From assembly GCA_903906315.1 (NCBI GenBank), contig CAIVJW010000132.1:1-64000 (forward strand): 64,000 nt of DNA. Reading direction: 5' to 3'. The notes beneath the pieces were generated by a model, which saw only the letters and a program-made list of their open reading frames with translations, was not told the DNA's origin and searched no databases. A program made the translations under genes and the position numbers. Numbering within the stretch: the first letter of the stretch is position 1; the number at the start of each line of letters is the position of its first letter. This document shows, piece by piece, positions 13,876 through 24,685 of this stretch. Origin of the DNA: an uncultured delta proteobacterium. GTDB taxonomy: Bacteria; Myxococcota_A; Polyangia; Polyangiales; Polyangiaceae.

Positions 13876-14014
13876 GGGCACGGACCTCACTTTCTCATTG
13901 TCCCCGAGCACCGGGAGCGTTGAGTTTAGGCGTCGCCGGCCTCGGCGGAGGCGGCGGCTTCCCGCTCTCGACGGGCGAGGGCCGGGCGCTACGAGTGACA
14001 AGTAATTGAGTAAG

Positions 14015-14048
14015 TGCTCGGGCGGACCGTTCGATGCTAGCCCGAGCA
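14015..14048. repeat. Inverted repeat in the dnaE leader region
   Basis: TGCTCGGGC (14015-14023) and GCCCGAGCA (14040-14048) are perfect complements with a 16-base loop, 53 bases upstream of the dnaE start. It could be an operator between the two divergent genes or a hairpin in the dnaE leader. There is no following T-run, so it is not a simple terminator. Confidence 0.5.
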
Positions 14049-14101
14049 AGGGGGGCCAGCAAGGGTTTGCGCGGGGCGATTTCCGTGCGAGGAGCCCCCC
14101 C

Positions 14102-17722
<3,621 letters not shown>

Positions 17723-17792: not shown

Positions 17793-20633
17793 CTACTGCC
17801 CGGTGGTGATGCCGAGCGGCACGCGCTTGCCCGCGGAGCTGGCGTCGAGGCCGCCGCCCTCGCGCGCGGCGTCGCTCGAGTGCGCGCGGACTTCGCCGTT
17901 CGCGCCGAGTCCCGCTGCGCTCGCCTCGGCGCTGGCGATGCCGCTCGGCAACCTGCGCACGGTGGTCACGACCACGGCGCGGGCGGGATCGAGGGCCCTC
18001 GCGAGGGCCTTGTCGACGTGCTCGACGTCGACGCGCTCGACGTCGGCGAGCAGGCGCTCCGCGCTGCCGGGCGCGAGGACGGCGCGGAGCCGCGCGGTCG
18101 AGACCTCCGGCGGGGCGCCCTTGCGCGGGCCCGTCGTGCGCTCCGAGATGCGGCGCTCGAGGCGCTTGCGGAGCAGCGCGCGGGCGACGCCGACCTCGCC
18201 GCCGCCGAGGCCCTTCTGCCTGATTTCGTCGAGCGCGGCGCGCAGCTCGCGCTCGATCGCCCCCGCTTCCGCCGCCGGGGCGCCGACGACCTCGATCGCC
18301 ACGACGCCGGCGCGAGGCCCCGGGTCGATCGTGCAGCGCACCGTTCGGGCTACGTGCGCGCGCCCGACGAGCGCGCGCTCGAGGCGGGCGCTCGGGCCGC
18401 GGCACAGCGCGTCGAGGCCGACCCGCAGGGCCGCGTGCTCCGGATCGCCCTCCGGTGGCACGAGCCAGCCGAAGAGCGCGGCCGGCGTGAGCACGTGCTC
18501 CTCGACGACGACGCGCTGACCGGTCGCCGGCCTGTCGATGGGGACGTCCGCGGGGGCGAGGAGCCAGCCGAGGTGGGGCTCGACGAGCGCGCGTGCGCGC
18601 GGGAGATCGACGTTGCCGGCGAGCGTCACCGTGATGCGCCGCGGGGTGCGCTCGGATCGCAGCGCCTCGAGCAGCAGGGCGTCGCGCAGTACTGCGGGCT
18701 CGTCGTCGCCGCCGCCGACGACGGAGCCCTCGAGCGGATGGCCGACGGGGAAGAGCGTGCTCGACAGCGCGAGCCACGCGGCGCCGTAAGGTCGTGCTGC
18801 CAGCGCCTTGCGGACGCCCTCGCTCGCGCGTCGCCGCAGGTCGGCGTGGTAGGCGCCGCCGCCTTCCGCGAGGATCATTCGGGCGCGCGCGGCGGCGATC
18901 TGGACGCCGACGTCGAGGTCGGGGGGCGGGACCGTGACGACCGTGTGCGCCTCGGAGGTCTCCGTGAGGACGCCGCCGCTCCCCGCAGGCCGCGCGAGGC
19001 GGAGCGCGATCGCGACGTCGACGGCGCGCGGATCGCGTCGCAGCACCACCGTGAGCCCGTTCGGCAGCGTCAAGCGCTCGCCTCCGCCGTCGTCGGCGAG
19101 GATGCCGCTCGCGACGGTGCCCGGGCTGCGCAGCGCGGCCGCGAGCGTGCGCTCGATCGCGCGGCCGGCTTCGTGCGCGCCCGCGATGGTCGTCCACGAG
19201 TCCGGGTCGCCGAGGAAGCCGCCGCCTCCCTGCTCGACCAGGAGCGATCGCCAGCCGATGCCGACGCCGATCGTGCGCGCGGGGAGCTGCGCGTCCACGA
19301 CGCCGAGGGCGGCCAGGGGGATCATCGCGCGGCGCGGGAGGGAGAACTCCGGCAGGCGGTTGTGACCGAGGTACGAGGGGCGAGGGGGCAGGCGCTCGTC
19401 CGCGAGGGCGATGGCTTCGATCTCGCCGTCGCGCGCTGGCGCCGGGATGCCCGTTTCGGCCTCGTCGTCCTGGGCGCGCTGCGCGTCGGCGCGTTGCTCG
19501 GCTGCGTAGAGGACCGGGAAGCTCGCGAGCGCCCGCGAGACGCGGTGCGCGGGGACGCTGACGACGACGTCGCCGCCGGTCGGCGGGGTGCGGTCGCGGA
19601 GGAGCCCGGGGTTGTACTCGCGGATCGCGGCGATCGAGACCTCGGCGGCCCGTGCGATCGTCGCGAGGCGCGTGCCCGCCGGCACGACGAGCTCGGCCGG
19701 GGTGAGCGGCTCGCGCGGCGGCGCGTCGGGGTCGTCGAGGCGGTAGCGGGCGCGGTTCAGCGCGACCATCGCGAAGGCGACGACCTTCGGGACGTAGTTC
19801 GCCGTCTCCTCGGGGATGACGCCTGCCTCCGCGAGGTCCGCGAGGTCGACCGGGCCCGCGCGCACGCCGCGCTTGTCCGACGCGCGATCCATGGCGCGCA
19901 GGAGGCCGTCGTGGCCGAGGTTGTACGCCGCGAGCGCGAGGTCCCAGCGCCCGAAGCGCTCGTACAGGTCGCGCAGCATGGTGACGGCGGCCTTCGTCGC
20001 GCGCTCGGGGCTGCGCCGCTCGTCGAGCCAGGGGGAGACCGAGAGCTCGTAGTGGCGGGCGGTGCCCGGCAGGAGCTGCCACAGGCCTGCCGCGCCGGCG
20101 GGCGAGACCGCGCGCGGGTCGAAGCTGCTCTCGATCGCCGCGACCCAGACCAGGTCCTCCGGCAGGCCCGCGTCGCGCAGCGCTCGCTCGACCATCGGGC
20201 GGTACGATCCGGCGCGCCGGTAGCGCTCGGTGAAGCTCTCGCGACCCGCTACGCTGCGCGTGAAGAACTGGACGTAGCGGATCGTGCGGCGCGTGATCGG
20301 GATGCGCAGATCGGGCTTCGCGAGGCTCTCGATCGCGGGGCCGTCCGGGTCGTCGACGTCGCGGCCCTCGCCTCGCGCGAGCTCGCGGGCGATTTCGGCG
20401 TCCGAGAGAGGATCGCGCGACGAGCAGCGCGGCAGGCCGCCGCGCTCGGTCGGCGCGGTGGGCGCGCAGACCGTATCGGCGCGATCGGCCACGCGGCCTG
20501 GATCGCGGAACGCGACCCACGCGGCGGAGAGCGACGCGCGCAGGGGCGGCGACCCGAGGGCCCCGAGGAACCCGGCGCCGCCGCACGCGAGGGCGCCGCC
20601 GACGATCACGTGGCGCAGACGAGGCCGGATCAC
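17793..20633 (-). CDS. Fusion of lytic transglycosylase, LysM and M16-like domains
   Basis: A 946-residue envelope protein. The GTG start has GGGAG seven bases upstream and is followed by a signal-type hydrophobic helix (HVIVGGALACGGAGFLGAL). Residues about 140-290 form an MltD-type GH23 lytic transglycosylase with the catalytic Glu168 in AIESSFDP and GAAGLWQLLPGTARHYELSV. A LysM-like repeat lies near 330-380 (VPAGTRLATIARAAEVSIAAIREYNPGL, in two parts). From about 530 to the end the sequence resembles an M16 (insulinase/processing peptidase) protein, with RLTLPNGLTVVLRRDP. The HxxEH zinc motif is absent, so that half is probably non-catalytic. It likely cuts or remodels peptidoglycan. It lies downstream of a MoxR ATPase gene. 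Confidence 0.88.
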   Translation of the reverse strand: MIRPRLRHVIVGGALACGGAGFLGALGSPPLRASLSAAWVAFRDPGRVADRADTVCAPTAPTERGGLPRCSSRDPLSDAEIARELARGEGRDVDDPDGPAIESLAKPDLRIPITRRTIRYVQFFTRSVAGRESFTERYRRAGSYRPMVERALRDAGLPEDLVWVAAIESSFDPRAVSPAGAAGLWQLLPGTARHYELSVSPWLDERRSPERATKAAVTMLRDLYERFGRWDLALAAYNLGHDGLLRAMDRASDKRGVRAGPVDLADLAEAGVIPEETANYVPKVVAFAMVALNRARYRLDDPDAPPREPLTPAELVVPAGTRLATIARAAEVSIAAIREYNPGLLRDRTPPTGGDVVVSVPAHRVSRALASFPVLYAAEQRADAQRAQDDEAETGIPAPARDGEIEAIALADERLPPRPSYLGHNRLPEFSLPRRAMIPLAALGVVDAQLPARTIGVGIGWRSLLVEQGGGGFLGDPDSWTTIAGAHEAGRAIERTLAAALRSPGTVASGILADDGGGERLTLPNGLTVVLRRDPRAVDVAIALRLARPAGSGGVLTETSEAHTVVTVPPPDLDVGVQIAAARARMILAEGGGAYHADLRRRASEGVRKALAARPYGAAWLALSSTLFPVGHPLEGSVVGGGDDEPAVLRDALLLEALRSERTPRRITVTLAGNVDLPRARALVEPHLGWLLAPADVPIDRPATGQRVVVEEHVLTPAALFGWLVPPEGDPEHAALRVGLDALCRGPSARLERALVGRAHVARTVRCTIDPGPRAGVVAIEVVGAPAAEAGAIERELRAALDEIRQKGLGGGEVGVARALLRKRLERRISERTTGPRKGAPPEVSTARLRAVLAPGSAERLLADVERVDVEHVDKALARALDPARAVVVTTVRRLPSGIASAEASAAGLGANGEVRAHSSDAAREGGGLDASSAGKRVPLGITTGQ

Positions 20634-20793
20634 CTGGCTACTCCCGGAGGGAGGGCGCGGATCGGTCGCGCGTCGAGCGGTCGGGGAGGACGGGTCGGCA
20701 TCGGCGGTCCGGAGGCGCGAGGAGTCTACCCCGAACGGCGCGCTCCCGGGGCGCGTAACGTCGGGAAGTTGGCCCCTTTCGGGGAGGGCCCCG

Positions 20794-21765
20794 TCAGCCG
20801 CCGCGCCCCGCCTCGGCGAGGAGGGCCGCCAGCCGGGGCTCGACGTCTTCCTTGTCGTGCTGGTGCTTGAGCAGTAGGCCCAGCGTGTCGCGCACGAGCT
20901 CGGGGCCGAGGGCCCTACCACCGAGGAGGGCGAGCGCCCGGGCCCAGTCGAGCGTCTCGCTGATCGCCGGCAGCTTGCGGAGCTCCAGGGTGCGGAGGCC
21001 CTGCACGAAGGCCACGACCTCGGCGGCGAGGCGCTCTTCGAGGCCCGGGACCGACAGCCGGAGGATCGCGAGCTCGCGCGAGGGCGGGGGGTAGTCGAGG
21101 AACGCGTGCAAGCAGCGGCGCCGGAGCGCTTCGGTCATCTCACGGGTCGCGTTGGTCGTGAGCAACACCAGCGGCGGGTGCGTGGCGCGAATCGTGCCGA
21201 GCTCGGGGATCGTCACCTGTTGCTCGGAGAGCACCTCGAGCAGGAAGGCCTCGAACTCCGGGTCGGCGCGGTCGACCTCGTCGATGAGCAGGACGACCGG
21301 CGCGTCGCTGCGTAGCGCCGCGAGCAGCGGGCGCGCGAGCAGGAACCGCTCGCTGAAGAACGTGGCCTCGCTCTTCTCTACGATCGCGGCGGCCTCGGCC
21401 ACCGAGCCGGTGCCGGCGAGGTCGCGGGCGACGGCGTCGCGGAGCAGCTGCGTGTAGAGCATCTGCTTGGCGTAGTCCCACTCGTAGAGCGCCTTCGATT
21501 CGTCGAGCCCCTCGTAGCACTGGAGGCGGATGAGCGTCCGCCCGAGCGCCTCTGCGGTCGCGCGGGCGAGGTCGGTCTTGCCGACGCCGGCAGGCCCCTC
21601 GAGCAGGAGAGGTCGCTCCATCGCGAGCGCCAGCCACACCGAGAGCGCCGTCGTCGGGTCGGGCAGGTAGCGAGCGCCCGCGAGGGCGACCTCGAGGTCC
21701 TTGGCGGACTTCGGGATCGAGGTGTTCGCCCCGATCCGGCCGCCCGAACCGGCGTGGTCGGTCAT
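20794..21765 (-). CDS. MoxR-family AAA+ ATPase
   Basis: A 323-residue AAA+ ATPase. Walker A is GPAGVGKTD (near residue 60), Walker B is VVLLIDEVDRAD, sensor 1 is LTTNATREM, and the arginine-finger region is EALRRRCLHAFLDYP. MoxR proteins act as chaperone-like ATPases, often with a VWA-domain partner that is absent here. The ATG at 21765 begins the protein proper; the frame continues upstream without sense. A TAGCGT box ends seven bases before this ATG, which would give a very short leader. The next gene on the strand, 160 bases away, is the transglycosylase fusion. Confidence 0.93.
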   Translation of the reverse strand: MTDHAGSGGRIGANTSIPKSAKDLEVALAGARYLPDPTTALSVWLALAMERPLLLEGPAGVGKTDLARATAEALGRTLIRLQCYEGLDESKALYEWDYAKQMLYTQLLRDAVARDLAGTGSVAEAAAIVEKSEATFFSERFLLARPLLAALRSDAPVVLLIDEVDRADPEFEAFLLEVLSEQQVTIPELGTIRATHPPLVLLTTNATREMTEALRRRCLHAFLDYPPPSRELAILRLSVPGLEERLAAEVVAFVQGLRTLELRKLPAISETLDWARALALLGGRALGPELVRDTLGLLLKHQHDKEDVEPRLAALLAEAGRGG

Positions 21766-21850
21766 GGGGGCCACGCTAGCACGCCGCCCGCGCGGCCGCG
21801 CCGCACGGAAGGGGGCCAATCGCAGCGCGCCTTGCTATGGTTGCGCCGGA

Positions 21851-23134
21851 ATGGACGACCCGCGCTCCGAGCTCGTTCGCATCGACGCGACCGGAACCGC
21901 CCACCCCGTCGGGCGGACCGCGAGCCAGCGGATGCGCGTACGCCAGGGGGCGTTCCGGCTCATGCCCGCGCCGGCCCACCTCGTCGTGATGCGGTACGTC
22001 GGCGAGGACGGCCGCCGCGACGACAACGACGGCCCGGTCTTTCGCCTCGCAGGGGAGATCACCGCGCACGCAGCGCTCTGCGACATCGTGGCGCTCGTCG
22101 GCCACGCGGGCTGGGCGGGCGAGCTCGTCGTCCTCGACGGGTACGCCAGCCGCTCGATCTTCTTCGAGGCGGGAACGGTCATCGCGGCGAGCTCGAGCGC
22201 CGGCGGCGAGCGGATCGGCGAGGTGCTCTACCAGTACGGCGCCCTCACCGCGCATCAGGTCGGCGCGACGGTGGCGGCGTCGAGCGCCGACGCACGCTTT
22301 GGCGAGGTCGCCGTCAAGCTCGGCTTCATCACGCCGGAGCGCCTGTTCCAGATCATCGCCATCCAGGCGCAGGAGATCCTCTACGCCGTGCTCCGCGTGG
22401 GCGACGGGATGTTCTACTTCCTGGAGACGTACGACGAAAAGCGCATCGCGGCGCGCCTCAACCTCGGCGTGAACGGCCTCCTCATGGAAGGCGTGCGTCG
22501 GATGGACGAGATGAGCTTCTTCCGCCAGCGCATCCCGTCCGAGGAGCACGTGCCCGAGCGGGTCGTGGGTCATGGCGTGCCCGCGGCGGAGGTCGAGCCC
22601 GTCTACTTTTCCGTCGATGGCGTCCGCACCGTCGCCGAGATCGGACGCGTCGTCGGCCGAGGCGAGTTCGAGGTCACCCAGGCGCTCTTCCAGCTCGTGC
22701 AGTCCGGCCACGTCGTCGTCCACGCGCCGCGGCCGACCGGCCCGGCGGCCATCGCCGAGATTTTCAACCAGATCATGGCGTGCCTCTTCGGCGAGCTCGA
22801 CGCGTGCGCGAGGGGCGACGCCGTCCGCGAGCAGCTCGCGAACTTCGCGGCGAGCGGCGGCGTGTACATGTCGCTCTTCGATGGCGCGGGGCCGCGGCGC
22901 GACGGGACGGTGGACGGGGCGCGCCTCGCGGACAACGTCGAGACCCTGGTCGGGCCCGAGCAGGCTGACGCCTCGCTGGCGCAGTGGCTGCACGAATACG
23001 CCACCTTCGCGCTCTTCCTCGGCGAGCCCCACCTCCGCCGAAGCGACGCGCCCCCGCTCTCGGTCGACGCCGGCGCCGCCCCCGCGCGACGGGTCGGCGA
23101 GATGCTCGCGGCGCTCTCCTCGCGCGTCGGCTAG
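21851..23134 (+). CDS. DUF4388-type regulatory or scaffold protein
   Basis: A 427-residue cytoplasmic protein. Residues about 55-210 match the DUF4388/PATAN pattern: FRLAGEITAHAALCDIVALV, GELVVLDGYASRSIFFEAG, then IGEVLYQYGALTAHQV and FGEVAVKLGFITPERLFQII, and a hydrophobic MFYFLE strand. This domain is common in myxobacterial signalling proteins. A winged-helix-like segment follows (VDGVRTVAEIGRVVGRGEFEVTQALFQLVQSG, in two parts, near 255-290), then an uncharacterised C-terminal part. The start is the ATG at 21851. It is convergent with the NtrC-type regulator, 18 bases apart. Confidence 0.82.
   Translation: MDDPRSELVRIDATGTAHPVGRTASQRMRVRQGAFRLMPAPAHLVVMRYVGEDGRRDDNDGPVFRLAGEITAHAALCDIVALVGHAGWAGELVVLDGYASRSIFFEAGTVIAASSSAGGERIGEVLYQYGALTAHQVGATVAASSADARFGEVAVKLGFITPERLFQIIAIQAQEILYAVLRVGDGMFYFLETYDEKRIAARLNLGVNGLLMEGVRRMDEMSFFRQRIPSEEHVPERVVGHGVPAAEVEPVYFSVDGVRTVAEIGRVVGRGEFEVTQALFQLVQSGHVVVHAPRPTGPAAIAEIFNQIMACLFGELDACARGDAVREQLANFAASGGVYMSLFDGAGPRRDGTVDGARLADNVETLVGPEQADASLAQWLHEYATFALFLGEPHLRRSDAPPLSVDAGAAPARRVGEMLAALSSRVG

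Positions 23135-23152: not shown

Positions 23153-24685
<1,533 letters not shown>

Follow-up and report, generated by a model that had tools for sequence, protein, structure and literature searches.

One gene of the uncultured delta proteobacterium studied here, a member of the Polyangiaceae, which are soil myxobacteria, encodes a lytic transglycosylase of the MltD type that is fused to a single M16B peptidase half lacking the catalytic zinc-binding segment. The same junction recurs in further genomes of the family, where the M16 half is maintained by purifying selection. The gene lies in a stretch of 64,000 nucleotides at the beginning of contig CAIVJW010000132.1, the whole of which is referred to as the window.

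The fusion gene and its transglycosylase half

The gene and its parts are arranged as follows, all on the minus strand.

17793..20633, minus strand: whole gene, MltD-type transglycosylase fused to an M16B half, 946 aa, GTG start (ORF list and Pfam)
20550..20612, minus strand: hydrophobic N-terminal segment, residues 8-28, membrane anchor or signal peptide (read from sequence alone)
19872..20180, minus strand: SLT transglycosylase domain, residues 152-254 (Pfam PF01464, E 2.5e-25)
20130..20132, minus strand: codon GAG of the catalytic Glu168 (motif context WVAAIESSFDP)
19554..19697, minus strand: LysM-like segment, about residues 313-360 (weak Pfam LysM and 8rhe alignment)
19080..19481, minus strand: linker, residues 385-518, with a conserved LPPRPxxxGxNRLPxF motif (10-homologue alignment)
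18648..19079, minus strand: remnant of M16 domain 1, residues 519-662, catalytic segment missing (hhalign against HxxEH-type M16)
18948..18998, minus strand: deletion site, about residues 546-562, where HxxEH-type relatives carry GRSGFAHLFEHLMFEGS... (hhalign and 17-member alignment)
17931..18647, minus strand: M16 domain 2, residues 663-901 (Pfam PF05193 and match to 3ih6_A)

The reading frame opens with a GTG at 20633, is free of internal stops and closes with a stop codon whose last base is 17793. A preceding sequence-only reading had given exactly these coordinates for one continuous frame, leaving the strand unstated. The GTG start is supported because Polyangium homologues have an ATG at the equivalent position of the homologue alignment. 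The hydrophobic segment that follows is replaced by a lipobox-like motif in some homologues (L028, L049). The fusion gene is flanked by a convergent dnaE-like gene (14006-17719, plus strand), and three further genes of the window are its neighbours.

20797-21819, minus strand: AAA (MoxR-like) ATPase gene, upstream of the fusion on the same strand
21848-23131, plus strand: DUF4388 protein gene
23156-24685, minus strand: sigma-54 response regulator gene

No conserved neighbour or operon partner was found, the ORFs of the window and of nine homologous loci having only the fusion gene in common; nor was any M16 gene found adjoining the fusion at these loci. An antisense mirror ORF of 996 codons lies opposite the fusion gene (window 17880-20870, plus strand) and appears to be a side effect of the high G+C content, at which such a frame is to be expected.

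The assignment of the N-terminal part to an MltD-type transglycosylase with an intact Glu168 holds. The SLT domain scores 88.7 bits against a curated cut-off of 21.3, and the closest curated transglycosylase model is that of MltD, PRK10783 (E 3e-37). The 128 bits obtained with this model fall below its equivalog cut-off of 508, so the protein is related to MltD rather than an orthologue of the E. coli enzyme. Like E. coli MltD (SLT family 1 fold), it carries the catalytic Glu of its SLT domain within the motif ESxFxPxAxSPxGAxGLWQ; the domain is followed by a putative LysM-like segment and preceded by an N-terminal envelope anchor. Unlike E. coli MltD, it ends in an M16B half instead of further LysM repeats, and the N-terminus of most fused members is plainly hydrophobic with no clear lipobox. 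The LysM domain named in the sequence-only reading is less secure than was implied there: the Pfam LysM match has an E-value of 0.1, below cut-off, and weak matches to this model, likewise below cut-off, occur in 9 of 10 homologues (best E 0.012). A LysM-like segment is weakly supported by these matches and by phmmer, which aligns residues 131-380 with 8rhe, a LysM-bearing protein of solved structure (E 7e-26).

The M16 half and its missing zinc site

Pfam detects a Peptidase_M16_C domain (PF05193) at residues 663-817 (E 9.9e-12; 45.5 bits, cut-off 23) and an M16 domain in 10 of 10 fused members checked. In hhalign, the profile built from 18 fused halves matches HxxEH-type M16 over its full length (probability 100, E 3.6e-49). 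Structure prediction of the C-terminal half, which the sequence-only reading had suggested as a check, yielded an M16 fold: Foldseek searches with an AlphaFold2 model (10 input sequences, mean pLDDT 58, domain 1 poorly resolved) returned M16 proteins as all top matches, and domain 2 of the model superimposes on 3ih6_A with a Z of 19.5 and an rmsd of 2.7 over 167 residues. A full-length model was discarded for its mean pLDDT of 45.

The catalytic elements of the family are gone from this half. A net gap of 38 residues in the fused-half profile relative to HxxEH-type M16 removes the HLFEH-carrying segment and its helix, and in place of the later Glu that serves as third zinc ligand, the fused members inspected have Gly, Pro or Ala (hhalign and alignments). 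As first read, the M16-like part has no HxxEH: none occurs in residues 519-905 of the window protein, nor in the M16 halves of any of the 27 fused copies described below. An HxxEH flagged in L018/L043 precedes the start codon and falls outside the protein. A PF00675 search of the window's own genome did not report the fusion gene.

What is left of the half sides with the active member of the M16B pair. With subunit profiles built in this analysis, the window M16 half scored 130 bits against the HxxEH-type subunit and 3 bits against the R/Y-type subunit, the latter profile comprising 5 rows only. The R/Y pair of the non-catalytic subunit is not present, the aligned window positions being Val and Arg. 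The best PDB profile match is 3amj_C, the active subunit of a Sphingomonas M16B heterodimer (E 4.8e-13); the inactive subunit 3amj_B ranks below it (2.2e-5). By its sequence, the fused M16 half is most closely related to the catalytic (HxxEH) subunit of bacterial M16B heterodimers. The earlier supposition of a usual pseudoprotease partner fails on these scores and on the nature of the loss: not just a few ligands but about 38 residues, including the HxxEH helix, have gone.

In M16B enzymes, two halves of ~50 kDa pair to enclose a chamber, one contributing HxxEH and the other the R/Y pair; M16 chains without HxxEH are proteolytically inactive (PMC12731061). With neither element, the fused half is very unlikely to have peptidase activity. 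The polypeptide contains one M16B half only (domain 1 plus domain 2). The full clam-shell pictured in the sequence-only reading is thus not present, and could be completed only if the half paired with itself or with another M16 chain.

Like M16B catalytic subunits (3amj_C/3ami of Sphingomonas; PA0372; TTHA1264), the fused half has domain 1 followed by a whole domain 2, an LPNG first strand and a PYGxxWxxLxxxLFPxGHPxxG region. Unlike them, it is shortened by the deletion, has lost the third zinc ligand and sits behind a transglycosylase with no operon partner. It resembles M16 pseudoproteases (the R/Y subunit, alpha-MPP, cytochrome bc1 core proteins) in being non-catalytic and kept by selection, probably for binding. 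Those, however, are partner subunits of normal length with an R/Y pair or a glycine-rich loop, whereas the fused half has neither of these features, groups by score with the HxxEH subunit and is attached to an enzyme that cuts glycans.

Distribution, single origin and selection

The domain-architecture survey proposed in the sequence-only reading recovered 27 copies of the fused gene in 23 of 108 Polyangiaceae genomes, representing 9 genera, with both halves present in all 27 frames. The fused class was defined by E<=5e-75 with a C-terminal-half profile; the next class, at E>=4e-58, consists of free-standing M16 peptidases. Full-length matches in the 108 genomes share 39-47% identity. Elsewhere in a 377-genome sample of the phylum, with a few candidates scored per genome, the fusion was not found; the search beyond the phylum was one pattern-based scan of genome contigs.

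The window's assembly is fragmented (455 contigs), which might suggest that two adjacent genes were joined by an assembly or sequencing error. This is refuted by the identical junction in 26 further copies, including those in five single-contig genomes (G006, G066, G100, G101 and G102) and in named Sorangium and Polyangium strains. The protein is a genuine fusion of an MltD-type enzyme with a non-catalytic M16 part, and neither outcome that the sequence-only reading had named as fatal to it, a spurious junction or a C-terminal fold unrelated to M16, was found.

Phylogenetic trees place the fused proteins in one clade for either half. The transglycosylase halves group together (100/99) against 29 unfused relatives, and the M16 halves do so (100/99) against 32 HxxEH-type and 7 R/Y-type M16 chains. 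One fusion event followed by duplication therefore explains all copies. Four genomes (G045, G066, G106 and G107) carry two copies each.

The catalytic Glu is retained in 26 of the 27 copies. In L046, the second copy of G066 (on G066:C1), the SLT region reads MAAILSGFEP and the codon of the catalytic Glu is CTG (Leu); both the transglycosylase and the protease half of this copy appear catalytically dead. G066 also encodes an intact first copy, L022.

The fused proteins form two subfamilies, a longer and a shorter form, and in the 17-member alignment the M16 part is more reduced in the second. This could mean that only domain 2 matters, a point against the reading favoured below. Pairwise dN/dS values between Polyangium or Sorangium homologues, obtained by simple Nei-Gojobori counts, are 0.06-0.36 for the M16 half and 0.04-0.26 for the SLT/MltD region; the linker, at 0.12-0.69, is the fastest-evolving part. 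Both halves are under purifying selection, the values for the M16 half lying in the range of those for the MltD part. They indicate that the M16 half is in use and maintained, though purifying selection does not tell which use. The partial deletion of domain 1 and the still shorter second subfamily would suit a decaying, functionless remnant, but with 27 open copies, none broken, and with this range of dN/dS, such decay is highly improbable.

The closest stand-alone HxxEH relatives of the fused half adjoin an R/Y-type partner gene with a lipoprotein-like beginning. This partner reaches E<=6e-100 in nearly all of the 18 genomes with the stand-alone gene; two of its copies are split or broken. 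The stand-alone gene with its partner (L119-L126 and others) and the fusion occur in 18 and 23 Polyangiaceae genomes, respectively, with an overlap of 0. Direct descent of the fused half from this closest-scoring gene was suggested by the scores and the mutual exclusion but is not borne out by the M16 tree, in which the fused clade falls outside all sampled HxxEH rows.

M16B subunits are usually heterodimeric (PMC12731061), and the fused half might pair with a separate M16 chain of either the R/Y or the HxxEH type, bringing a peptidase to the site of peptidoglycan cutting. Other M16 chains are indeed still encoded in the fused genomes. The window's genome has seven PF00675 matches besides the fusion, of which one is a gene on C31 and six form three ordinary two-gene M16B pairs.

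G000:C426:2876-5658: two-gene M16B pair
G000:C180:3979-6017: two-gene M16B pair
G000:C132:133335-135070: two-gene M16B pair

The dedicated R/Y partner of the closest stand-alone relatives, however, was found in none of the 23 fused genomes, where no match exceeds 4e-88, and the fusion has no M16 gene beside it. The fused half also lacks both HxxEH and the R/Y pair; without HxxEH, its pair with an R/Y subunit would possess no zinc site. Such a heterodimer is fairly unlikely.

Proposed role and significance

Given its single origin, its occurrence in 9 genera and its maintenance by selection, the fusion probably has a binding or regulatory job for its dead half. The envelope-anchored transglycosylase, probably active, would cut the glycan strands of peptidoglycan while the LysM-like segment would hold it to the wall. 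Through the conserved linker it is joined to an M16B half from the catalytic-subunit side with its zinc site deleted. This half-shell would no longer cut peptides. It would act as a module for protein binding, most likely forming a pair with itself in the manner of M16B halves or gripping an envelope protein, and would thereby position or restrain the transglycosylase. The chances that this account of an anchored enzyme with a gutted M16 half-shell is right seem to us about even. The earlier suggestion that the M16 half guides or inhibits the transglycosylase is likewise plausible.

Pseudopeptidases commonly act by binding (PMC11266112), and in E. coli the periplasmic adaptor NlpI acts together with the protease Prc to control MltD post-translationally (PMC10931528), a precedent for controlling an MltD through protein contacts. 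A binding or self-pairing module is favoured because pseudopeptidases bind and E. coli MltD is restrained by contacts and turnover. The turnover itself invites another explanation. E. coli MltD is short-lived, being degraded by NlpI-Prc with a half-life of about 8 min (PMC10931528), and the M16 half could be a stability handle, seen by a periplasmic adaptor or protease, that sets the lifetime of the transglycosylase. A few residues suffice for a degradation signal, yet ~380 residues are under purifying selection here, and we regard this explanation as unlikely.

Extended peptides bind in M16 chambers (PMC12731061), and the MltD family uses C-terminal binding modules, the E. coli enzyme being weakened by loss of LysM (PMC10931528). 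The emptied cavity might accordingly recognise substrate alongside LysM by binding a component of the wall, for example stem peptides. We judge this quite unlikely: the chamber has lost its catalytic floor and the R/Y pair that binds substrate, and stem peptides, besides containing D-residues, are short and branched.

Returning to the protein-binding module, a more far-reaching form of this proposal is offered tentatively, as one that may well prove wrong. A catalytic-type M16B subunit would have been captured once and its zinc site emptied, and would now be a built-in regulator that gates wall cutting by what it holds, either as a self-pairing clamp or as a receptor for an envelope protein. 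The fusion would then represent a new class of envelope enzyme.

Both protein families are known. No paper joining an MltD-type transglycosylase with an M16 half was found in the open-access literature, and, as far as could be searched, this domain order, the deleted catalytic segment and a pseudoprotease with affinity to the catalytic subunit are undescribed. So too, as far as the sources searched show, is an M16 pseudoprotease that comes from the catalytic-subunit side and is employed outside a protease complex. Unrestrained lytic transglycosylases destroy the cell, and the control of most of them is an open question. With a candidate regulator fused to a lytic transglycosylase, this question becomes testable within one protein.
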